Source: Liolophura sinensis (Eukaryota > Mollusca > Polyplacophora > Chitonida > Chitonidae). From it: a stretch of 64,000 nucleotides of DNA. Shown here in pieces: positions 6,201 to 41,900 of the stretch (position 1 is the stretch's first letter; each line of letters opens with the position of its first letter). Under the pieces are notes generated by a model. It was not told where the DNA came from and searched no databases. It worked only from the letters and a program-made list of their open reading frames with translations. A program made the position numbers and the translations under genes. Location: assembly GCF_032854445.1 (NCBI RefSeq), contig NC_088300.1, positions 73,072,984 through 73,136,983 of the forward strand, in the 5' to 3' direction.

Positions 6201-9200
6201 AATCCAAACCACCGCCTATTTATAAATTTCAAACTCGACTTATTTCTATAACCCGAAAACGAATCTGTTTGTGCTGGCTCTAAGCGAATCCTGTTTTGCC
6301 TTGTAAACGGGTAGGGTAGGGTACGCGTCCATGGTGCAATATCGTGTTTCCGGTTTCTCAAAGCGAAACATAGCGTTATTCATGGCCTCGTAAGAATTCC
6401 AGGCTGAAAGCTGATTGATACTTAGCAAGTATGTCAGAAAAAAAAAGTGAGAAGTCAAACAGTTTATGTCAGTTTGCATCCCTCTTCCAAAAGAACTAAT
6501 TATTTATTGTATTTTTAAGAACCATGATGATCTTTCCACAGAATACCGTCAGATTTTCACTTCGGACTAAACACATCAAACTTTAGAATACAAGGCTTTT
6601 TCCACTAAGACAACTTCAAAACATATACTGCTTTTAGAGCTTATTTTTAAGCCCTATAAATTAAAATTGTGACCACCTCATGAATGTTATCTTCATCTAA
6701 AAGCAAGTTAGTGAGGTTTTAAATTTTGACTTGTATGAAATGACCTTGTGGAATAGGCCCCACATAATTCGGAGTCAGTAACCCCCAGAACTGATTTGCA
6801 CGCGTCCGATGATATTTTATTGGTTTACGCTGTATAATTGATAAGCAGAGTTAAATGTGATCTTAAATGCTTGAAGTTTTACGTCGTATTTCAGAATTTT
6901 TCAGTTAGAAGATGGGAAGGAATCATTAGGAGTGTGCGTATTTATGCTGTTTCTTCTCGTGGCAGAGCGGTTTTATGTTGCTCAAAGTGTTGCCGCCACT
7001 GAAATATCATGCCGTAGACACCAGACTTTACACCCCACCCATTCACATTATACTGACACTGGGCTAACCAGTCCTGTTTCCTTGCTCTAACCTCTCAGTG
7101 CTCAGCACCAAGCAAAGCAGCAACAAGTACCATTTCTAAAGTCTTTGGTATGACCCGACCCGGATTTGATCCCAGGTCTTCTGATTTCACTGTACACGAG
7201 GTGTGGGCCACCTTCATAAACGTGTAGAAATTATCACTGGCATGCAGTCTATAATTTTTAAACGCCCACCGCCATTAGACGCAGCTTATTATGTTGTAGT
7301 AATTTTATCCTCTCTCCCTCTGTATTCGTGTCCGCCCTATATCTCCAATTGTTTTCCATGTGGCGTTTTAATTTTTGGTGTATACTTATATACAGAGATG
7401 ACGATATGTCGAGACTTACATTTGCCCATTTTCACCCTTACCCGGGTAACTAGCTTGCCATCATCCCTGTATATACTATATGATTTTGTCTCCGGACTAC
7501 AATACCAACTGTTTTCCACACAGAGTTTTAATTTTTGTTGCATACATAGATACACAGATGGCAATGTGTCTCGACTCATATTTGTCCATTTCTATGGTTA
7601 CCATGGTAATCAGATTGCTATTTCTCTGATATCTGCTCTGTAGATAGACGTGAACTTCGTGTTCATGGCTACAACTCCGTATATTGTGTTCACTTCAACC
7701 CTGACTTGTTAAAACTGGTATTTGTGACACGGTGGCTGGGGATTCAAACCTGGAGGAAATCTCGAGGAAAAAGTACATTTCCCCAGTCTCGTGTAAGCTT
7801 GATGGCGACAAGCTTTCGAGGACGCCAATGTGAGCCTACACTAACGTTCGTTGAAGACCACATGTCTTCGGCTAATGTCTGTACGTAATACGTGGGACAT
7901 TTCTAACAGTAATTTCCACAAGCTTGGTGGTTCACGCTGGGCACTGACTGCCATCGTAAAAGTTAAAAATGCTTGTGTATGGTGTTAAAGAACATTACTA
8001 TCGAATAAAGAAATAATACTGACATTTGACCTTACAGCTGGATTTTTCAACCCCAAGACAAAAGTCCCCATAAACACTTCCAGAAGTAAGAAGAATCCAG
8101 TATGCGTTGTGCCGATAGAAAATAGCGCTATATCTTTTCCGGAGTCCCATTCACAAGACTCACTTTACCGGTAAGAAACTGTACGGAAATAACATAAAGA
8201 GCATTTGTTTTACTGAAGCGTCGTGTAGAAATAACATAAAGAGCATGTGTTTTACTGAAGTGTCGTTTCAGGAAGTGCGCTTCACTGAATCATCGGCCGA
8301 AAATACCATAGTGATCATGTGCCTTACTGCAGCAGTTTGCGAAAATAGCATAAATACCACTACCACACATAGCTTCTGACCTTATGCTAAAGTTTTAAGT
8401 GCAAATGGACCATAATTCACCTCTGTGGAGGTCAACACATACTACCGAAGACTAGAAAGATGTTCTATTCCACTCCCTCCCGAAGAATTCACAGGGCGTG
8501 AAGGATGTACGGTTGGCGAAAGAAACATGTGCCTGAATGGAAGAAAACTAGGTTTTTAGTTGATTAAAGTTTTATTTCACCATTTTATTTAACAAAAATT
8601 CTGACAGTACAGTCTAAATAGCCGGACTAAATCGCGTGCAGCTCTTTTGCTGGTAGCTAGTCTTACAAAGCCTGATTGACTTATACATTAGCTCACATTA
8701 CTTGAGTTAGGGCTTTTCAAACGTCTGTTCTGACTCTAACGCGAGATTGATTCAAGGGAGGTGACTCTAAAGGACAAACGCACTGGACGTCAGTTGGCTT
8801 TTTTCATATATGTTTGATCAGGTCATGGGTTATCAACCACAATGAAGGTAACGCACTGCAGAGGCTGAAACTTATCGGTTACGATGAGAGCATAGGTTTC
8901 CTGTGCAACAGGTACGGGTTGAATCTCACTTGTGTCCTGGCCAAATTCTTTAAAGGAGAAGAAAACATAAAATGATGCCAGTCATATAAAAGAGCGTAAA
9001 AACTTCTCTGCAAATATGATCTTTAATATTTTTTTGGATTTTTTTGAGAGGAAAGGATGTTTGAAAATACTTTTGTATGATGGGTACTTGGGAGCAACTT
9101 TTGGTATTTATCGTTGTTGCATAATAATGTGCTAAATAAGGATGTGATGCTTGTCTAATAAATTTATTTGAATGTAAATTTGTTGTTTACATCGAAACAT

Positions 9201-10179
9201 ATGCATTTAACCTAAATTATGATAATATTTATGAACATATTAAAAATATAAATATGATCCAAATTGAGGTTTAATACATTTTTTAGCTGAAAAGAACAAA
9301 TTCTAGTGCAAAATTATTGATTAAACCTGTGTTACACCCCCTTTATTGAAATTATTAAACAAAGACTATAAATACCAAAAGGTGATCCCAAATACCCACC
9401 AGACAAAAATTATGTTCCTGTGTCTTTTTCTCCTAAAGGAAAAAATCGGTATAAATATTGAAAAACCACATTTAGGAATAATTTTTCGCACTCTTTCATC
9501 TGAACTTTATGTCATGTTTATTTTTTTTCTCTACCTTTAAAATGAGAGTGAGAACTGCGGGGGCCGCAATCAGTATCAGGTGCTTGAAAAGGTGTCACAT
9601 GTGGTATACTACCAGGCTGAGAAAACTCGTCTTTGCCATAATCATGTCTGAGAGATAACGACTAATGCATTTCATCCCAAAACTGTGGTGGACGAATCAA
9701 ACATGTTTGTATTGATTTTAAATATGCGTATACATGAACAACTAAAGGGAAATGAAATTCATAAACGACAAAATCACCCTTTAGAGCGAGATTCGCAACA
9801 TATCACTCGTGCTCATGTGTCACTTCAGTCATATTGAATAAAATTTACGTTCTGAAGCGGGATTTAACAGTGTATTCCAGTAAGGGACTAACAAGAAACA
9901 ATTAATGTAACGTGTTGTTGAGTGAATGCTTCTGCACTCACAGGTCAGTATGGTCCGGCGGCCAAAGCCCCACCAGCGGCCACACCACCCCCAGTCTCAG
10001 ATAAATGGCAGGCTAGCACATGCGGAAATGTACCCCTGAGTACCACATACAGGGAGAGTTTTGTCGGGGAGAGTGCCGAGCAGCGGAGAATCAGGCGTCT
10101 CAACATGAAGAAACCGCTGGAGACTGAAGGATTGGAACAAAAGTCATTTTCCTGGAACTGGGCACCTTACGGAAACTAA
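275..10179 (+). CDS. SAXO-like stabilizer of axonemal microtubules (Mn-motif protein), 9 coding exons
   Basis: Exons: 275-339, 1015-1087, 1246-1371, 2822-2917, 4034-4219, 5098-5248, 5760-6019, 8038-8085, 9944-10179, about 413 aa. Most junctions have GT/AG sites and matching phase. The start is the first ATG in good context (CACTATGGCG) opening MAASSSQSSSEQG. The protein has spaced Y-x-x-x-F/Y motifs: FQEYSTKF, QTSYDRNY, TVYQDTF, SEYQTAF, TTYRETY, FEGKSTQRSDY, TTTYE, STTYRESF. In SAXO/FAM154 and MAP6 proteins such Mn motifs bind microtubules and stabilise ciliary and centriolar tubules. The C-terminal order (FEG..T..DY..W, then TTT, then PINT, then GNVP..TTY) follows my memory of vertebrate SAXO1. 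I do not see the N-terminal Cys-rich block of SAXO1/2, so it may be another axonemal Mn-repeat paralogue. The join 6019/8038 is one base out of phase. The donor at 2917 (GTTGTA) is weak. Confidence 0.8.
612..624 (+). promoter_or_regulatory. RFX X-box-like site in SAXO-like intron 1
   Basis: TTTCCATGGTAAC matches the core of the RFX X-box (GTTNCCATGGNAAC) apart from the leading G. RFX factors drive ciliary genes, which suits an axonemal protein. The site is in intron 1. A similar motif at 7594-7610 lies in a repeat, so chance occurrence is possible. Confidence 0.25.
1676..1800 (-). mobile_element. SINE family 1, truncated copy
   Basis: Reverse-oriented body of the SINE seen whole at 24220-24471: GTGTTTTACGCC near 1680, GAATATTTC, CATTATGGTGGGA, a CGGGCAGAGCCGGG block, then CCCACGACCATCCGCAGG. 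The tRNA-like head is absent. Confidence 0.75.
1950..2200 (-). mobile_element. SINE family 2, diverged copy
   Basis: Reverse-oriented relative of the element at 30490-30730. It opens with GTGCTTGGGATTTAACG, followed by AATTTTTCAGTCATATGGCGACGAAGGAATCATT, quoted here only as a landmark series (TTTTTCAGTCATATGG, then GACGAAGGAATCATT), and a TTCTTGTTGCAGGACCG block. It lies in SAXO-like intron 3. Confidence 0.6.
2491..2743. repeat. Tandem duplication, 125-bp unit, in SAXO-like intron 3
   Basis: Two adjacent copies (2491-2615 and 2616-2743) both contain TTTGGGTCAAAAAATAGG and GTCCCGTAGTCGTGGCAGA. They differ by a small A-run indel and by AGGCCTA in the second copy. The near identity implies a recent duplication. 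Confidence 0.85.
4312..4425 (-). mobile_element. SINE family 1, degraded copy
   Basis: Contains GTGCTCAAGAATATTTCA, GAGGAAACCGGACCGAGCCC and GGGGAAACTCACAAC, all diverged from the 24220 copy. It lies in SAXO-like intron 5. Confidence 0.6.
5507..5610. repeat. Minisatellite, 36-bp unit, about 2.9 copies
   Basis: CAACTGACGTTTGC followed by TTGCATCCTGAACAAACACC recurs at 5507, 5543 and 5579. It lies in the intron between the exons at 5098-5248 and 5760-6019. The unit is a multiple of three, which explains open frames on both strands. Confidence 0.85.
6885..7195 (-). mobile_element. SINE family 2, longer copy
   Basis: Reverse orientation. In order: TTTTTCAGTTAGAAGATGG, GGAATCATTAGGAGTGTG, CTCGTGGCAGAGCGG, ACACCAGACTTTACACCCC, TCTCAGTGCTCAGCACCAAG and GACCCGACCCGGATTTGATC, the last near the tRNA-like head. 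The same order appears in reverse complement at 30490-30730. It lies in SAXO-like intron 7. Confidence 0.65.
7325..7645. repeat. Diverged tandem duplication, unit about 170 bp
   Basis: Two similar stretches each contain TGTTTTCCA, GTTTTAATTTTTG, a TATACACAGATG-like block, then TGTC(G/T)AGACT-like and TTTGCCCATTT-like blocks (near 7350-7430 and 7510-7590). It lies in SAXO-like intron 7. I recognise no coding sequence. Confidence 0.5.
8038..8085 (+). CDS. SAXO-like exon 8, phase-discordant with exon 7
   Basis: The acceptor is CTTACAG|CTGG and the donor CCAGAA|GTAAGA. Read as xCT-GGA-TTT-TTC, the 48-bp exon gives GFFNPKTKVPINTSR and joins the last exon (A|GT CAG TAT) in frame. Exon 7 ends in phase 0 (TAC GAG|GTAAGG), so the direct join reads a stop after 12 codons. 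One extra base would give TTTYE-x-GFF, which restores the Y-x-x-x-F spacing of every other motif in the protein. A later donor at 8167 (TTACCG|GTAAGA) keeps a longer frame but leads into a stop in the last exon. Confidence 0.6.
8186..8269. repeat. Tandem duplication, 42-bp unit
   Basis: GAAATAACATAAAGAGCAT starts at 8186 and again at 8228. A weaker third unit may follow to about 8310. It lies just inside SAXO-like intron 8. Confidence 0.75.
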
Positions 10180-20259: not shown

Positions 20260-23200
20260 ATGTCCGATCAGAAGAAGCTCTGGGCGCGCTTAACAACGGC
20301 TGATCAGGAAATGACGTGGAACCGGCTGATATTTTGTCCCAGCTGTGCACAGAAACGATCCACATACATTCCAGGCTTCGCTTTGCTTTTGCTACTGGTC
20401 GGAACAACATATCTGTCCACACTCCAGAGAGAAACTATTACGTTTAATTCTGTCGTAGGCGGTCGAACGAACTGCTCCAAAAAGCATGACGTCACCAAGG
20501 ACGACGTCTCAAAGACTACTCAAGGGTTTTTCTTAGGAAATCTCTTGCCATCGTTAAGCAACAAACATCCAGGATATGTAATATCGGCTGACCTCAGGCA
20601 CAATGACCTTTTCGCGAAAGGAAACCCAAAAAGAACGAAGACAGGCGATCGTTCTGGGAAAACAAGTGACAGGTTCGCCCTCAGTCTGAATCAAGACCTT
20701 ACTTATGATAGTGACAAGGTTAAAAAATCTAACAAAAAAAGGCCAGACAGAGACGATCAAAGTTACGGTTCCTCCACTTACTCACCTGAACAACAACGTG
20801 CTTTTTCTTCCCCAGATCCACTCATTGCAAAGTTGTTTGAGGACAATGTACCAACAAACAAGGTTCAAAAAATATATTTCAAAAGGTTTGACAAATGGAC
20901 AAAAGCCAAAAATATTTCTTTAAATTATTTTATGCCACAAATATCACGACTTTCATTCACGGAGAAAACTGCTTTTTGGAAGACTTCTTTGCCTTACCGA
21001 CCAAAAGACGTGGACCTCATGGCACTGGTGAGTCACACACCACTCGTTATTTCATCGAGAAAGTAATTTAATTCCTGGAATGAATCATAAAAATGAAGAG
21101 AACATCAGTAGAAATTAAATCATTAAATTTAAATAGTCAAATGTGTGGATTGTACAAGAGGCTGCAGGATGAAAATTGGTAATATATACCACTATTGACT
21201 TCACATAGCGTTTTCAGCTCTGTGCACAATTTTTGTGAGCTTCAGTCATGAACTATGAGTGCAAGAAAAGGTATTAAATGGCTGTTTTATCATGCTGAAG
21301 ACACCAGACATGGCACCCCACCCTCTTCTGATTCCTTGCCCTAACTTCTCAGTGTTGAGCGTCAAGCGAGGCTGCCACAAGTACCATTTTAAAGTTACTT
21401 AGCTGTTTCGTAGAGCCAGTCGTCGTCAATGGCGACATATATCTTCAATAGTCCATGAATAAAGAGATCTTAACTTTTCCAGATACAGTTTTTAAAGGTC
21501 TTTCTACTGATGCTTGCTTTATTTTATGGTTTCTTCCCCTTTAACATATGTAATAAAAAGTTTGATTTCCATGTAGAGCATGACTTAATGTGAAGGAGGA
21601 GACAGTATAGATGACATCTTGGGTTATTTATTCCTTTGCTGTGGTGTAAGGTGGTTCATCATTGTTTCCGATTCGGTTTTACATGTCATCTGTCTAGGTC
21701 AATTACCACAACCCCAGCGGCGAATAATACTGTATTACTAACTCATCTTATTTTTTGTTTTTCTCTGGTATTACATATGGTATGACTGAATGGTTTGTTG
21801 CGTATAGATTTGACATTGGAAAAATATAAACCTTTATTTGAGAATTATTGTGAACGGAATTCCTGTTTCTGTTACAGAAGCCTTTCCCCTTTCTGGAGTC
21901 GTACAAAAATCCGTGTTGGATTGAATATTCACGTGCAAACTATTCCGGAAGCTTCTACACATCCCGTAATGACGTTAGTCATGAGCTGGCGGTAATGGCT
22001 GAGTTGTTAAATAAGAGACGGAGAATCTGGGACTTTCACCGTGTTCGCTGCTTACCATACTTCCTTATCATTGGTCAGCCGAAGTGCGGGAGCACCGATC
22101 TTTACCGAAAGATTATTGCTCACCCCGATGTCTGCAACATCCCACCGGCATTGAAAGAACCTCATTGGTGGGCAAGAACGAGGCTTGGTAATTACAAATA
22201 TGATACGGTTTATGTTCACGGTATCATGCTTATCGCCATTTATGTGTTTGTGGTAGTACAGCAGGGGTCGGTTGCATGGAACTTACTCAGCGTTAAGTAG
22301 CCCTTAGCTAAGTGCACTTTATATATCTACAACATACGTTGTCATGGCAGTTAAGCGCTTACTTAGCTAAGTGAGTTTCATGAAACCGGCCCCTGTTTCA
22401 CAATTTACATCTTCCTGTTCCAGGACTTACTCTGCTCAGTAATGGAGGTACGAAAACAACATCATTCAAGTCACTCTACCCTCAGAACACCTTGTAACAT
22501 TAATAGCATCTGAATAATATATATCAGCCAAAGACTTCATGTTTAGTATTTTCTTCTGTTAAGCATGCATATATATGTATTATTTAAAATTCACTTGATT
22601 GGTGAAGTGGCTTATGCGCCTGTTTCTTGTTCTCGTCTTAAGATGGAGTCCGATTTTCTATTCCGGATCGGGATAGCGGTTACACACGTGGAACAGTACT
22701 GCATTTTTTATCCGTTTTATTATCAACTTTTATTCCAAAAAACAGTCTGTGACCTATGCTGTAATTAACAACCATCAGGTCGACAGAGTGCCCGGGGACA
22801 CGTGGTTTCGCTGAGAAATTACGTGGATCTGTTTGATCACGCTGCGTACAGAATAGAGACGGAGACAGAGACAGATGAGAAGAGTGGGGTAGTTCATAAC
22901 AAAATTACAGGTGCGTAAACGACTTACACAGTCATAAGTTATAGGTACGTGCAGCTTAACAAACGTTTTAGGTAGATGTTTATAGTTTAGAAAATTAAGG
23001 GAATATAGGAGTATTATTCACTTTCCCTTAACAATACTGTATATGTGTTAATATAAACAACATATCATATGTTGGCAGTTAAATATAAAAATTACAGGTG
23101 CGTGCGTGCTCAGAGAAACGTTTAAACGTGCGCTCAGATCAACGACAACAAAAAATGCCTACAAGATGTACAAACTTTACAGTAACATTATTTGTGGGTA

Positions 23201-26200
23201 CAAGAAGTAAGAAAACTGCAGGTTTGCAGGTTTGCAGCATTACAGCTACGCCGATGTTCTCAACATGGACTTTACGATTCATGCACACTAGTGTGTAAAA
23301 GCCATGTATGTGTTCATTTAAATCTTTCAATGTTTTGATATAATAGTCTATCTGACTTCAGGACTGTCTACAGCTATTTCGTTTAATCTACCCTACCACA
23401 TTTATTAATAATATAGCCGTCAATATTTGTCTAGTCTGAAGATCAAGTGTTTTGTGTGTCTTCAATGCTAGGTGTCACTGCAAGATTATTTCTCTCGTTG
23501 GTTCTATGTTTAGGTGAAGGAAGTATGTCGACATTTTGGGATAATGACCACTGGTGGGCGATGGTGGGCAACGAAAACACAACTGAGCCACGTGTACTCA
23601 ATCCTGACTATGTCCATCATGTTTTACCTAATGCTAAGCTAATTCTTATACTCAGGAACCCTACAACCAGGTAAATATAACTGCACATCAACCAAACTTA
23701 TCGTCATACTTAGGAACGTCATACCCTACAACCTGTTAAATATCACTACACATCCGCCACGTGTTACCTAATGTCAAACATATAATCATACTCAGTAACC
23801 CAACAGTCAGGTAAATATCACTACCCATCCACCACGTGCTACCTGACGCCAAACTTATCCTCATACCCAGGAACCCTAAAACCACGTAAATATCTCTACA
23901 CAACCACCACGTGCTGTATTACATGACACCAATCTTAGGCTCTTACTCAGGAACCCTAAAATCAGGTAAATATCTCTACACAACCACCACGTGCTGTATT
24001 TCTTGACACCAAACTTATCCTCATACTCAGGAACCCTAAAACCAGGTAAATATTACCACACAACCACAACGTGTTACCTCACGCCAAACTTATCCTCATA
24101 CTCAGGAACCCTAAAACCAGGTAAATATCACTACTCATCTGGCATGCGCTACCTGATGTTACCATATGACATCATATCTTACCACGTGTTATCTGACGCC
24201 AATCTTATCCTCATGCTCGGTGGCTCAGTTGGTTAGCGCGCTAGCGCAGCGTAATGAACCAGGAGTCTCTCACCAATGCGGTCGCTGTGAGTTCAAGTCC
24301 AGCTCATGATGGCTTCCTCTCCGGCTGTACGTGGGAAGGTCTACCAGCAACCTGCGGATGGTCGTAGGTTTCCCCCGGGCTCTGCCCTGTTTCCACCCAC
24401 CATAATGCTGGCCGCCGTCGTATGAGTGAAATATTATTGAGTACAGCGTAAAATACCAATAAATAAATAAATATCCTCATGCTCAGGAACCCTACCACCA
24501 GGTAAATATCACTACACAACCACCATGTCTTACCTGATGCCAAAGTTATCTTCATACTCAGGAACCCTGCAACGAGGTACATCCACAGCGTGTTACCTGC
24601 CGATAAACTAATCCCCACCACGTGTTACCCTATTCCAAACTTATCCTCACACTCAGGAATCCTGCATTCAGATAGATGTTACTACACATCCATCGCGTGT
24701 TACCTGAAGCTACACTAATCCTCATACTTAGGAACCCTACCACCACGTAAATGTCATTGCACATACATCACGTGTTACCCGACGCCAAACTTATCCTCAT
24801 ACTCAGGAACCCTACAACCACGTAAATGTCATTGCACATACATCACGTGTTACCCGACGCCAAACTTATCCTCATACTCAGAAACCCTACATCACGTGTT
24901 ACCCGACGCCAAACTTATCCTCATACTCAGGAACCCTACAACCACGTAAATGTCATTGCACATACATCACGTGTTACCCGACGCCAAACTTATCCTCATA
25001 CTCAGGAACCCTACAACCACGTAAATGTCATTGCACATACATCACGTGTTACCTGACGCCAAACTTATCCTCATACTCAGGAACCCTACAACCACGTAAA
25101 TGTCATTGCACATACATCACGTGTTACCCGACGCTAAACTTATCCTCATACTCAGGAACCCTACAACCACGTAAATGTCATTGCACATACATCACGTGTT
25201 ACCCGACGCCAAACTTATCCTCATACTCAGAAACCCTACAACCACGTAAATGTCATTGCACATACATCACGTGTTACCCGACGCCAAACTTATCCTCATA
25301 CTCAGGAACCCTACAACCACGTAAATGTCATTGCACATACATCACGTGTTACCCGACGCCAAACTTATCCTCATACTCAGGAACCCTACAACCACGTAAA
25401 TGTCATTGCACATTTATCACGTGTTACCTGACGCCAAACTTATCCTCATACTCAGGAACCCTACAACCACGTAAATGTCATTGCACATACATCACGTGTT
25501 ACCCGACGCCAAACTTATCCTCATACTCAGGAACCCTACAACCACGTAAATGTCATTGCACATACATCACGTGTTACCTGACGCCAAACTTATCCTCATA
25601 CTCAGGAACCCTACAACCACGTAAATGTCATTGCACATACATCACGTGTTACCCGACGCCAAACTTATCCTCATACTCAGAAACCCTACAACCACGTAAA
25701 TGTCATTGCACATTTATCACGTGTTACCCGACGCCACTATTTTACCATATACCAAACTAATGCTCAAGCTCAGAAATCGGTTAGCAAGATGACTCTACAA
25801 ACGGCTGACGCCAACCTTGTCAAAACAAATTATCACAACATTTTGAAACGTGTCACTGAAGCCAATGTAAATAATACAGATCTTCCACAGCGATGTTTTA
25901 CGTGATGCTAAATAATGCTTGCCGTGGGTATCGCATAAAGCTTACTGAAAAGATGCTGACACGTAGGCTTACACAAGTTGACGTACATCTCATCGTTTCT
26001 CACATTCTTTGCTATTACAAAGTATCCTGATAAAGTACGTCTCTGTCAGTTAATTATGTGAGTCATTAGGAGGTTTTAAGTAATTTTGTTACTGACCGTT
26101 AATAATATGCATGTATTTCTAAGCATGGTCCCTGACTAACATGTAATAATTTTTTTCTACGGCAAAATTGTCACACCGTACAAATGCAGATATCCGATAA

Positions 26201-29200
26201 TGGCTGTTTAATTTCTTCAAATGTTGCTTAACCCCGTACTCAAGTATTATTTTACTTACATGACGGTAGTGAAGTTTGTGGGTGAAGGAAACCACCACCC
26301 ATCACCTAGTAATCGTCCTGACTTAAAGTTGCAACCGAATCAGCGAGATCTATAGTTGTGCCTGGGACCTCGCCGGTTAGACAAAAACGCTTTAGCTGAT
26401 TGAACCAGAAATCTCTTATACTGTCATAACCTGATATATGGATATGTCTGTAACATTAACGTAATCCATTTTAATATTTCAGAATGTACTCCGATTTTTT
26501 GTACTTCCGGAAGGACCGGAAGTTGCCCGTAGATTTCCACCAGGCGGTTGTGAATGCAGTCCGCGTGTATAAGGCCTGCATAAGAGTGCACTCAGTACGA
26601 GGCTGTGTGTATAATGCTACTACTAACCAACGAGCGAAGGTATATCATGAGTGATCACCAGGTTAACATCTCTAGTACTCTAATGGCGTTGTGAATGGAA
26701 CTTACATTAGGAGTTCGCATAGATCAAACTTTTTAACCGTATTTGTTTAACTTTCATATCATTTTATTAAATTCAAGAGAAAAACACGTAATAGTTGAAA
26801 ACGTTGTTTTTTAATAGTGTTTATTTAGCATTTTCAATTCGTATTATGCTATGGTTGTTTGATTAGCACTGTGCGTGCAATACCATGTATGTTTACATAT
26901 CAATCATTAGATAGTTGATTTGAAGGCGAAAAATTTCTTGGAATGTTTTTATAAGAGCGTGGTCTTCGTTAATGGCCCCACAATGCTAAGTGGGGTAAAA
27001 TGCCACGGTTTGCTCACCTGCAACCTCCTTATGTCATAACACACGTGTAATCCTACCATCTTTCTCCCAAAGATTCGTCTACGTGTGGGAATGTACGCTG
27101 TGTTCTTAGCAGAATGGCTCAGAGTGTTTCCAAGGCAACAACTCTTCATCGTGAGAACGGAAGATTACGCAGAGGGTCCTCAGGGTATCCTCAGGGATAT
27201 CTACGATTTCCTTGGACTCAGTGAGTAGCTTTCGTCGTTCAATCGTTCATTGAATTTGTTCATTGATCTAATCAGAGTTGTGATTTTTGGAGATAATTTG
27301 CTTTTTTGGCTGTCCTAGAATTGCATGGGGATGAATCAATTCGTTCATCCACACGTAGATTCATTTTGTTCCACATTTCATTCGTTAATACGTCAGCATT
27401 ATTCTTCTTGAAGTTTAATGAAAAACATTTTGTGTCAAATTCTTGTTGCTGAAGCGAATAATTATATGCCATAAGGCTGTGACAGTTGAGTATACCGATT
27501 GATTGACTTGACACGTTGGTTAATGTACAACCACTTTAACCAGTGAAGCTTCCCATGTTGTCGAAGGGGCTGAGATATTAACCATGTCTTCAAATTAGCA
27601 CTGTCTTTAAAACTGACAGAAGCCTAGAAGCAGTTTCACATAAACACTGTTTTTCCAAAATCTATATAACTTTCTATTGTCTTCATAAAAAGACCTTTCT
27701 ATTTTAAACACAAAAAGGTCTTTTTATGAAGACCATGCCCTTAATCAGCGCGGTATTCAAAAGATGTTAGTGTTCAGTTAACACATGCAGACACTGTGGC
27801 CTAATTTCCCTTCGGTTTACAGTCTTACCAGAGCATTTACCTTACCAATAGTTTTCACCTGGCGCTGGCCGTGTATTGGGCTGTCAGATAATGTGTGTGT
27901 CTGCACGTCTGTCAGTCAGGAAGAGATCACCGTCAATTTGTATGCATTACCGTACAAATCAGTGGCCTTTAGCTGTGAGGCGTGATGGAATCCGGGACAA
28001 TAGTCAAGAGTCATTCACCTCACTTCACCTCAACAAGCGGTATTACATCGGCTGTAACGTGGGAAAACACATATAGATTCCCAGCCGCACATTCGCCATT
28101 AAGTACAACTGGGTTTATCGTGTAACTGTGTGGGAATCACGCATTAGTATTCTGTATAATATACATTGGTGTTCTCTGTATAGATATCGGTTTGAGTATT
28201 TGAACATAAATCTCTTCCGGAGTGGGTAAAGTATCGGTTCAACTTCTAAAAGCTTTTAATTCACTCGCTAAAAAACATTCCTTGCGTTTTTCCATCATAA
28301 TGGAAAACTGCTGACTGCATGAGTCCGTCCTAATTTCTTACTTTCGTTGTCCTTTGATGATTTGTGTTGAATGCTGTTTTGGAAATTGGTCTTGGGATTA
28401 CGTCCTTTGTTGTTCGACGACTGGGTCGGTAACGACGATTAGATTGGATATAATTGATGCACAAGTGAAACGGTAACATCTTCGATCACTATGTCGAAAC
28501 TTTAGATATTTCCATGGTAACGTTCCTTTCATATTGTGGGGGAAAAATCAGTGACTCTACTCGATTATGGGATATCAGCGTGTTTGTAATATTTTATTTT
28601 GTGACAGAGCAATCTGTCCTACGATTGGTTTATTTCAGTCGCGTGATAGCCTGAAGAGTGTATCGATCAGACTCATTTCATAAAGCAGGAAAGGCTTTTA
28701 ACTGGGCTGATTCGGAGTTTTACAGACCCTGCAGGTTTAATATGGCCTCTGTCTATTACATAGGTCAGCATTACTCCTTAAGGTCTGTAAAATTTGAGTT
28801 AATCTCATAAAAAGTTACATCTGAATGATTGCGTATTGAATCTGAATATATAGTTGTCAACATGGCATTCATAAAACTAAACTGTCAGTCCGAACAGCAT
28901 TGTCATCAATCAGGTCAGTCAGTCATTTAGTTTATAAATTGTCTTATCGCGATAAAAAGCACACGAGTAGCAAAGTTAGAAAAGCAGAATAGGTAAAATG
29001 TAAAAGGTAGAAAGGTAGAAGAGCTTGGTTTGTCCTTACTTTGTCAACCAGGTCGGTCTGACCGTTCATCCGTTAATTAAATTAGTCATAAACCGAGAAC
29101 TGTATGTTTTATTTCCAGGAAATCTGACGGCAGACGAAGAGGAGTCTATTCTCTCAATGCAAAAGGCCAATACTCGGCGGAAACAGGATGTTCAGATCGG

Positions 29201-29315
29201 AGACATGCTCCCTGAAACTAGGGTTCTATTGGATGCTTTTTACAAACCTTACAATGAACAATTAGCCAGAATGCTGGGAGACAATTCGTTCCTGTGGAAC
29301 GATGGCTGGTCATGA
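20260..29315 (+). CDS. Carbohydrate sulfotransferase 15-like protein, copy A (7 coding exons, 622 aa)
   Basis: Exons: 20260-21027, 21878-22187, 22779-22910, 23514-23670, 26483-26639, 27073-27220, 29119-29315, all with GT/AG and consistent phases 0,1,1,2,0,1. The start is ATG 20260 (MSDQKKLWAR), 35 nt after an acceptor. It is a type II Golgi-like membrane protein: a short basic cytosolic end, a hydrophobic segment near residues 36-55 (GFALLLLLVGTTYLSTL), a polar Ser/Lys/Asp-rich stem to about 256, then the catalytic domain. The PAPS 5'-phosphosulfate loop is IIGQPKCGSTDLY (about 320-332), followed by KEPHWWARTR. The 3'-phosphate motif is LILILRNPTTR (about 445-456). CHST15 (GalNAc4S-6ST) moves sulfate from PAPS to C-6 of GalNAc-4-sulfate in chondroitin sulfate. 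The family is clear; the substrate is inferred. Intron 4 holds a minisatellite made from exon 4. Confidence 0.88.
21290..21400 (-). mobile_element. SINE family 2 fragment
   Basis: Contains ACACCAGACATGGCACCCCA, CTTGCCCTAACTTCTCAGTG and AAGCGAGGCTGCCACAAGTA, matching the 6885-7195 copy. It lies in copy A intron 1. Confidence 0.6.
22268..22393. mobile_element. Short foldback (MITE-like) element
   Basis: The left end CGGTTGCATGGAACTTACT and right end AGTGAGTTTCATGAAACCGG are imperfect inverted repeats, with internal GTTAAG...TTAGCTAAGT blocks that are also inverted. About 125 bp, in copy A intron 2. The class is inferred from structure alone. Confidence 0.4.
23514..23670 (+). CDS. Sulfotransferase A exon 4, converted with copy B and source of the minisatellite
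   Basis: Encodes GEGSMSTFWDNDHWWAMVGN through LILILRNPTTR. It is 157 bp and differs from copy B exon 4 (42027-42183) at four positions, all synonymous (GGT/GGC, TCG/TCA, CGT/CGC, ATA/ATC). Flanking introns do not match beyond GTAAATAT. Its last ~57 bp and donor seed the array that starts immediately downstream. Confidence 0.9.
23671..25735. repeat. Exon-derived minisatellite, 75-bp unit, interrupted by a SINE
   Basis: The regular part (about 24766-25735) repeats every 75 bp; for example ACCCGACGCCAAACTTATCC starts at 24901 and 24976. Degenerate units extend back to the exon. Each unit resembles the end of exon 4 plus the intron start: a CATCACGTGTTACC block (exon: CATCATGTTTTACC), then CTCAGGAACCCTACAACCA and GTAAAT. 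Read in the exon frame a unit encodes HHVLPDAKLILILRNPTT. Most units in the regular part have ACCACGTAAATG, which weakens the donor; several early ones keep CAGGTAAATA. Roughly 20 or more units in total. Confidence 0.92.
24220..24471 (+). mobile_element. SINE family 1, full-length copy with target-site duplication
   Basis: The tRNA-like head has an A box TGGCTCAGTTGG (24222-24233) and a B box GTTCAAGTCC (24291-24300). A conserved body follows (GGCTTCCTCTCC, ACCTGCGGATGGTCGT, CGGGCTCTGCCC, CACCATAATGCTGGCCGC, GAGTGAAATATTATTGAGTA), then an AATAAATAAATA tail. It is flanked by 13-bp direct repeats TATCCTCATGCTC at 24207-24219 and 24472-24484. The duplicated target is minisatellite sequence, so the SINE inserted after the array formed. 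POL III transcription and LINE-mediated insertion are family knowledge. Confidence 0.93.
26222..26310 (-). mobile_element. SINE family 1, degraded fragment
   Basis: CCCCGTACTCAAGTATTATT followed by TTACTTACATGACGGTAG resembles the start of other reverse copies. The rest is too diverged. It lies in copy A intron 4. Confidence 0.4.
27679..27733. repeat. Perfect inverted repeat (20-bp arms, 15-bp loop)
   Basis: GTCTTCATAAAAAGACCTTT at 27679-27698 is the exact reverse complement of 27714-27733. It lies in copy A intron 6. It could be a foldback element remnant, or an RNA hairpin in the transcript. I see no matching copy elsewhere in the window. Confidence 0.9.
28270..28445 (+). repeat. Dispersed repeat R3, partial copy
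   Basis: Blocks AAAACTGCTGACTGCATGAG, TCCGTCCTAATTTC, GATTTGTGTTGAATGCTGTT and TTACGTCC follow the order in the longer copies at 37676, 48700 and 58485. It lies in copy A intron 6. Confidence 0.6.
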
Positions 29316-38938: not shown

Positions 38939-41900
38939 TCACGTACTGCCGGGTTCACTCCACAGGAACTGATCATCTCTAAGAAGAGTTACCAGCTCTT
39001 CGTTGAATGATCTGTAGAAGTTATTCAACAGAACCCTGGTTTCTGGAAGCATGTCCCCCAGAAGTTTGTCCTTCACTCTCCGTGTATTCGCCTTCTTCTT
39101 TGACAGTATCTTTGTGATATGGGAATCAGACAGCATCCCTAAAAACAACCAGATAACGCCCAGGTTATATATGTATATATGGTTCGTTCGATTTATATCA
39201 TTTGTGACTTTGCAATTGATCAAAGCTTACGCCATTGAGGTGGGGTGGGGTCGGGGGTGGGTTGGTGGAGGGGAATCACTGGCTCAGGCGGCTCGATAAT
39301 GACTTTGGGTGGTTCTTTCTAGGGCACGATAATAGTAATTCGTTGTTAGTATAGCATCATAATTTCTGTCACTTTGGGGTGTTTCTAACTCACCAAGACA
39401 GCATAACCACTAAAACTGGCAATCCTGTATAAAGCAACGATTGCTTCACTTTGGGTATAAAAATACAAGGATACGTGTTGCAGATAATACTTATAAACCT
39501 ACACAAAGGAACAATTATATTTCGCCGTGAATTGCAACGATTTGGTAATATCGAGATATATGACAACCAGATGGTAATATTATGTGATGGTGTGATTAGC
39601 CTGTAGAGAAAACTCGCCCAAGAGAATGTACATATTGGGGCCTCGTTGGTTCAGACCAATGAGGTTGCGTTGTAAAATATGGGTTTGCCAGTACGTCGTA
39701 ATACCCATATTTTCGACGCAAGTTAAATTCCTCAAATGCTTATATGAATGTGTCTTCATACAGTGTGTTACAGAATGGTGTGTGAAGTACTATAAACTGT
39801 AATTAGGCCCCGTTTCAGCCAAAATGTTATGGGTTGGTCTTTCTAATCCACATCTCGCGGCTGGAGGTTTGGTTGGTACATAGCGAATGGCAGTAGCTTA
39901 GTCCGGGCTCTCCGATTTCCTCCACTAATAAACCTGAGCACCATCGTATAAGTGGAAATTCGTGAGCACGCCATTAAGTATCAATCAAATATCCAGGTGC
40001 ATTACAATCCACAAAGCTGCCTTATACTCTCAATCATTCACCGATGGACAAGTATGCCCCATGACAGCACAGTGTTGCTCACGTACCCAGGCCTAGGAAC
40101 TTGTAGAGCTCTTGGAGCACGTCTCTAGGGTTATCAGCGTACTCCTCTGTCCGTATGATGAAGAACTGCTCTCGAGGGAACACACGCAGCCAGTCCTTCA
40201 TGAAGACAGAGTACATGCCCACGCGCAGCCGTACCTATAGAATAAATACAAGATCACAAACGATTTATTGTCCTATCAACAGAACAAGCGTATGATTACA
40301 GCATGACCACTGGTTGATGGTACATACCCAGCCCTATCTGCAGAACAAGCGCATAATTACAACATGATCACTGGTTGATGGTACATACCCAGCTCTATCT
40401 GCAGAAGAAGTGTATGATTACAACAAGACCACTGGTTGATGGTACATACCCAGCTCTATCTGCAGAACAAGCGTATGATTACAACATGATCACTGGTTGA
40501 TGATACATACCCAGCCCTATCTGCAGAACAAACGTGTGATTACAACATGACCACTGGTTGATGGTATATACCCAGCCCTATCTGCAGAACAAACGTGTGA
40601 TTACAACATGACCACTGGTTGATGGTACATACCCAGCCCTATCTGCAGAACAAGCGCATGATTACAACATGACCACTGGTTGATGGTACATACCCAGCCC
40701 TATCTGCAGAACAAGTGCATGATTACAACATGATCACTGGTTGATGATACACATCCACAGATACGTATAATTACTGAAGAGTGATGGATGGTAAGGGCCG
40801 AAATACATGAACACATACACAGTATATGTGAACACCAAAGGGATTTTCCTTACAAAAACAACAGAACGGTCATGATTTTACCACGGTTTTAAAGAAATAA
40901 TCCATTGGTTTTATTTTTTTAAAATTGCCGTGTATACATGATACACAGTCAAAATTGAGGATTTTTAGTAAAGTGAACGACTAGAGCATCACTCGAGGGC
41001 CCTCAATACCAAGAGTTCAAAAGAAACAATCCAACAGTCAACTTCACCTCTTCATATACGATATCAATTCTAGGTGTTCATTCTATTATTCGTGTACAAG
41101 TTCACAAGTGCTAAGGTGGTGTCTGCCGTCAGTATGCGACGTCATGGTGATTAAGTCTGAATTCCTTTGAGTAACAGGCCTCGACATCGAATCGAGGATC
41201 GCCCGCGATGTGGGTGAGCTTCTTACCTTTGCTATACTCTTCACGGTAGCATTATACGCACAGCTGCGTATGGAAGCCTGTCGAAAGCAGTTCTCATACA
41301 CACCGATAGCTTTCACAACGTCCCCGTGGAAGTCCACCGGCATCTTGTCATCCTTCCGGAAATACAGATAATCCGAATACATCCTGAGAGAAGAGAGACC
41401 GCCACAAAGGGTATATTAGAGTGAAATTCGTCATACAAACTAGTGTGAAACGCTTGACATGTACTTGAGTACTAGTACGAAACTCAAATAAACTAGTGTG
41501 ATACTCGTCACATATACAAGTGCAAAACTTTTCACATATACTAGTGCTAAACTTGTCACACATACTAGCGTGAATATCATTACATATACTAGGGCAAAAC
41601 TCGTTACGTATAAAAAAGCGAAAATTGCCACATATACTAGTGCGAAACTCGTCACTTATACAATTGCGAAACTCCTTACATATACAAGTGCAAAACTCGT
41701 CACTTTTACTAGTGCGACACTCCCTATGTATACAAGTGTAAAAGGTTTCACACATACTAGTGCGAAACTGGTCACACATACGAGTGTGAAATTCAACTAC
41801 TTGAACATGTTTTGACCACTTGACACTGATACATGCGTTCTCACATCCACCCGTTTACACGGATCTTGACAATAAAACTGAACTTGACTACAGGTGACTT

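Follow-up and report, generated by a model that had tools for sequence, protein, structure and literature searches.

A mirage-type minisatellite at the exon 4 donor of a chiton sulfotransferase gene, likely derived from an earlier version of the exon

The locus and its two sulfotransferase genes

The window (the whole stretch of DNA that was analysed, 64 kb in length) is part of an 82-Mb contig in a Liolophura sinensis assembly, which comprises 609 Mb in 632 contigs, 13 of them large. The assembly was first published under the name Liolophura japonica (PMC11068029). The species name has since been corrected from L. japonica to L. sinensis (PMC12441733).

We found two sulfotransferase genes in opposite orientations, an inverted pair. 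Exons 2-7 of gene A occupy 21878-29315 on the + strand, and gene B extends from 43089 to 38939 on the - strand. Each has an open frame from exon 2 to the stop; exon 1 was not located for A or B, and the gene models start at exon 2. Both genes match the sulfotransferase profiles PF00685 and PF13469 above cut-off (A with exons 2-6 joined, B with exons 2-7 joined), while exon 4 alone as a query gave no match in Pfam or PDB searches. The proteins presumably resemble vertebrate CHST15. The exons used below are:

21878..22187, + strand: gene A exon 2
22779..22910, + strand: gene A exon 3
23514..23670, + strand: gene A exon 4, with AG/GT edges, an open frame and a 100% amino acid match to B exon 4; its tail codes for HHVLPNAKLILILRNPTT
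26483..26639, + strand: gene A exon 5, the first real exon past the array
27073..27220, + strand: gene A exon 6
29119..29315, + strand: gene A last coding exon, through the stop codon
42027..42183, - strand: gene B exon 4 (inverted paralog), with 4 differences in 157 bp from A exon 4 and no clear array after it

A 75-bp array in intron 4 of gene A

Intron 4 of A begins at 23671, immediately after the end of exon 4 at 23670, and opens with an array of 75-bp period that continues to about 25735. The array is thus intronic and directly adjoins its parent boundary. TRF reported 75-bp arrays at 23723-24134, 24619-24897 and 24888-25736, in agreement with an earlier note on this DNA, which had placed such an array at the exon 4 donor. 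A full unit consists of the last 57-59 bp of exon 4, the donor and 16-18 bp of intron. This homology, also claimed by the earlier note, is clear: an alignment of the late consensus unit with the exon 4 tail plus 18 intron bases scores 46, and the best of 500 dinucleotide shuffles scored 13 (0/500 approached the real value). The proposal that a duplication of the exon/donor boundary was followed by amplification is well supported. The parts of the array and its surroundings are:

23671..23688, + strand: authentic donor GTAAATAT followed by the opening bases of the intron; the intronic portion of the units is homologous to this stretch
23689..24205, + strand: diverged, older portion of the array, with 7 segments; the final one extends into the left target-site duplication
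24206..24218, + strand: left target-site duplication TATCCTCATGCTC of a SINE-like insert
24219..24471, + strand: SINE-like insert, with a tRNA-like head judged by eye
24472..24484, + strand: right target-site duplication of the SINE-like insert
24485..24765, + strand: older, diverged part of the array, continuation
24766..25735, + strand: young, homogeneous part of the array, with the donor mutated to CACGTAAAT; 12 full units, mean difference 1.8%

The exon-proximal segments are diverged, and the interior and far side are homogenised. We cut the array into 25 segments, counting partial ones. Exact HHVLPDAKLILILRNPTT is encoded in 11/25 and a recognisable variant in 12 of the other 14, so the earlier statement that each unit codes for it was too strong. 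The donor reads AG|GTAAAT in 5/25 segments, CACGTAAAT (CAC|GTAAAT) in 14/25 and neither in 6/25. Units from 24691 onward contain 13 of the 14 CAC donors (in unit 24841 the donor region is missing), and the remaining one is in the early unit 23830, so the mutated donor is mainly a single inherited substitution spread by expansion. What had been described as decay of the donor in late units is mostly this one change.

Whole-genome DNA searches with early units and with late units as queries gave no matches other than this array and the fourth exons of A and B; the counts are lower bounds, as very common words were skipped. A widespread 75-bp satellite, which had been named as the case against an origin from this gene, was not seen with either query.

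An open frame of 342 codons (24732-25760) was considered as a coding repeat. It spans the young units because the 75-bp period is divisible by 3, but it is not in the exon's frame, and we gave it no weight. As a separate observation, CACGTG E-box-like palindromes number 20 within 23671-25735 and 17 across the rest of the 64-kb window.

Arrays in paralogs and at other exon edges

Two protein searches of the genome gave the same seven genes with an exon 4: A, B, three at C6:47.64-47.69 Mb, one on C9 and one on C7. None besides A and B exceeds 52% identity to A/B. The three paralogs on C6 (L011, L012 and L013, reverse strand), located 25 Mb away, contain arrays of 55-bp period in their intron 4. 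The L011 and L012 units each correspond to 27 bp of the gene's own exon tail and about 25 bp of intron. The L013 unit resembles mainly the exon part, less clearly than in the other two. When the exon 4 tail and intron start were compared with the rest of intron 4, A, L011, L012 and L013 each beat all 300 shuffles. The same test gave no array in L014 and L027 (124/300 and 277/300 shuffles, respectively). The exon 4 donor region of B was reached by 12/300, 2/200 and 30/2000 shuffles in three tests, and we did not count it as an array. Copies above a score threshold of 12 number 21 in L011, 10 in L012 and 9 in L013, counts that carry no shuffle control and that include, in L013, 7/9 of only 12-15 nt.

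L011 and L012 share a unit (unit-versus-unit score 75), and the scores of L013 against these two are 14 and 10, so the L013 array is not clearly built from the same unit. The A unit is weakly similar to that of L011 (score 15), in another register and of another length. We read this as suggesting at least two array origins, one in A and one before the split of L011 and L012.

We scanned 44 exon edges of A, B and the three paralogs (22 + 22), the edges in the three paralogs being placed by approximate matches and their exon 3, as well as exon 7 of L045, being left out as not located. In these scans, six edges scored above every one of their shuffles: the exon 4 donors of A, L011, L012 and L013, A's exon 3 donor and B's exon 6 acceptor. 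The last two correspond to these features:

23074..23103, + strand: single extra copy of the exon 3/intron 3 boundary of A, AAAATTACAG|GTGCGT, 16 bp perfect, in intron 3; 0/2000 shuffles reach its score
40272..40751, - strand: 61-bp array in intron 5, shortly before exon 6 of B; its unit resembles the exon 6 acceptor, with acceptor-like TTCTGCAG

The resemblance of the 61-bp array to the exon 6 acceptor was reached by 14/500 shuffles with another query and by 0/200 and 3/2000 in further tests. Given that 44 edges were scanned, this array is a possible acceptor-side mirage and suggestive only. A 24/72-bp array in intron 4 of B (41470-41791), tried as an exon 5 mirage, was rejected, with a score of 11 compared with 15 for the best of 200 shuffles. 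As a control, we took 30 of 99 listed P450 matches; their 60 edges yielded 2 cases of self-similarity above shuffles, neither crossing a match edge. The control is rough, since the ends of profile matches only approximate exon edges and some of the matches are long single frames.

Exon 4 is nearly identical between A and B

In exon 4, A and B agree at 51/51 compared residues (codons at the exon ends were trimmed), with 3 synonymous differences; over the full 157 bp there are 4 differences. By contrast, the other five located exons are 58% identical in amino acids over 311 codons (50-63% per exon), and 95/181 of their same-residue codons differ (Fisher p = 2e-10 for the contrast with exon 4). 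At the DNA level, the block of near identity (97%) pairs 23512-23681 with 42185-42016, starting at the acceptor and taking in about 10 bases of the following intron, and the first 10 intron bases after exon 4 contain 1 difference.

Ectopic gene conversion between inverted paralogs leaves a block of near identity amid otherwise diverged copies, and the sharp-edged block in A and B has this form. Since the two proteins are identical only across exon 4 and at 58% in the other exons, gene conversion has probably overwritten this exon in A. We infer that the direction was from B to A. At position 23650, the array consensus agrees with A but not with B, so the conversion tract may end inside the exon. 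Before conversion, the two copies were probably only about 82% alike in this tail, and conversion at such similarity is unusual. Unlike ectopic conversion in general, the block here amounts to a single 157-bp exon and about 10 intron bases, and the adjoining array appears to hold the replaced version.

Codon positions in the array and in the present exon

The codon-position comparison omits the scrambled segments 23689 and 24173, and the late units were entered as one consensus. This consensus differs from the present A exon 4 at 9/18 third positions versus 1/36 first and second positions. Nine early units, compared with their own consensus, show changes at 16/153, 19/154 and 22/154 of positions 1, 2 and 3, respectively. 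Thus, changes within the array are even over codon positions, as expected of neutral decay. Compared with the present exon 4, the same units have changes at 20/153, 18/154 and 78/154. For the nine early units and the late consensus taken together, the mean distance to the present exon is 0.12 at positions 1 and 2 but 0.85 at position 3. The ratio is 7.0 (interval from a bootstrap over codons, 3.2-16.8), with P = 0.0008 for values not above 2.

The third-position excess relative to the exon, together with the even decay within units, indicates that the changes separating the array from the exon mostly arose while both lines were coding. The earlier note had read the array as a copy of the exon 4 beside it. 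That interpretation is partly supported: the homology to the boundary stands, but the codon positions argue that the present version of A exon 4 was not the template. The late consensus and A exon 4 differ in 8/17 same-residue codons, a proportion like that between A and B in their other exons (p = 0.80). The array thus probably derives from a version of exon 4 that was synonymously about as far from A exon 4 as A is from B elsewhere. The argument for a fossil exon rests on 18 codons only, and the third-position differences are clustered in them, with 9 in the first 11 and 0 in the last 7 (p = 0.002). AGGAACCCTA, near the end of exon 4, is also kept in the three paralogs, so local constraint varies.

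Proposed history and alternatives

Starting from what is observed directly, i.e., the array, its homology, its restriction to the locus in two genome searches, the arrays in paralogs, the codon pattern and the A/B identity in exon 4 only, we consider it likely that this is a mirage-type minisatellite whose template was an earlier exon 4 of A, later replaced by B's version, such that the array is a fossil of the lost exon. A short segment over the exon 4 end and its donor would have been tandemly duplicated into intron 4. The duplicated segment would then have been amplified, by slippage or unequal exchange. Exon 4 of A would have been overwritten by the version of its inverted paralog B, with conversion confined to that exon. 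Finally, the far end of the array would have expanded recently and become near uniform, and the exon side, old and diverged, would have been left as it was.

The simplest history would be that the array was copied in place from the present A exon 4 and that all later change was neutral drift. The array directly adjoins the exon and is homologous to it, as such a copy would be. However, a copy made in place should be about twice as distant at third positions as at positions 1 and 2, a value well below the bootstrap interval of the ratio seen, and we regard this history as unlikely. Somewhat less improbable, but still not expected, is that the array was seeded by a third paralog, now lost or undetected, or that conversion went from A to B, in which case the fossil would not be A's own old exon. 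The intron start of B resembles that of the array (GTAAATATCAC), and the direction of conversion was deduced from one species only. Against a third paralog, the two protein searches agree on seven genes, none of which except A and B comes close to this pair, and the array sits exactly at A's own boundary. A dispersed satellite that inserted beside the exon by accident and resembles it by chance would fit the frequency of minisatellites in these introns. It is hardly credible, in view of an exon homology far above shuffles and of genome searches that, within their sensitivity, gave no further copies.

Coding selection on the units, as present or former alternative exons, could also explain the synonymous differences. 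An acceptor-like CTCAG|GAAC occurs in 15/25 segments and lies 15 nt, i.e., in frame, upstream of the donor where GTAAAT follows, so an in-frame insert of 15 nt is conceivable. Yet unit-to-unit changes are even across codon positions, GTAAAT gives a TAA stop where the exon frame is kept, and both CTCAG|GAAC and AG|GTAAAT are retained in only 4/25 segments. We consider selected alternative exons very improbable. The exon-frame donor reads AG-G TAA, so that splicing to a later decoy donor would put a stop directly after the exon. The array is probably removed with intron 4 by splicing, and it is most likely neutral intronic DNA, with no sign of function.

Beyond the favoured history of a replaced exon and its fossil, a bolder idea, which we hold only tentatively and on balance doubt, is that arrays at exon edges are prone to recombination. 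The array would then have promoted the replacement of exon 4 as well as kept the replaced version, and the exon 4 donor of this family would breed mirages repeatedly (75-bp in A and 55-bp in three paralogs, with traces at the A exon 3 donor and the B exon 6 acceptor).

Relation to known systems

Canestro et al. 2002 is reportedly the reference cited for amphioxus mirages. Mirages are tandem repeats that span exon-intron boundaries in amphioxus; the cases are Adh3, the globins BflGb6 and BflGb9 and troponin C, and PGBD5 is likened to them (PMC3087553, PMC3902484). The former paper mentions a proposal that mirages are raw material for new introns (PMC3087553). The array in gene A has a unit that spans the boundary, lies beside its parent boundary in the intron, contains AG/GT signals in many but not all copies and has a homogenised interior and a diverged edge. 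According to the same papers, amphioxus mirages are likewise homogenised inside and diverged at the edge, and occur on the donor or acceptor side. BflGb6 has 3 and 6 units in two haplotypes, compared with 25 segments in the chiton gene, which was analysed in one genome assembly. RT-PCR suggested normal splicing in amphioxus. Unlike the amphioxus mirages described in these papers, the chiton example is in a mollusc, has counterparts of a different unit length at the same boundary of paralogs, and appears to come from a template that differs from the present exon.

Human genes in segmental duplications also exhibit expansion of internal tandem repeats at exon-intron boundaries (PMC2812944). The human repeats described there alter the exon/intron structure of recent paralogs, while in the chiton the exon is intact and the copies are intronic.

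The examples that we found in print under the name mirage come from amphioxus. Our literature search, which covered few subscription journals, turned up neither a mirage in a mollusc nor an array that keeps a converted exon. A recurrent mirage in a mollusc is of use because the paralogs allow its formation to be compared at one boundary. If the array does keep a replaced exon, it is a direct internal record of gene conversion, which is usually inferred only from other copies or species.

Other repeats

The SINE-like insert, with its 13-bp target-site duplication, interrupts the 75-bp array. Similar stretches occur within the window at 1651, 4290, 15966, 35602 and 58971, and ARAGORN called no tRNA in the insert. 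A SINE-like stretch that by eye resembles the one in gene A also interrupts the L013 array.

Three further repeats were noticed in the window. Intron 6 of A contains a short inverted repeat (27676-27736, 61 bp, 85% self-complementary). An imperfect palindrome of 593 bp (8949-9541) is 67% self-complementary, and a direct tandem duplication of about 130 bp at 2489-2743 is 95% identical.
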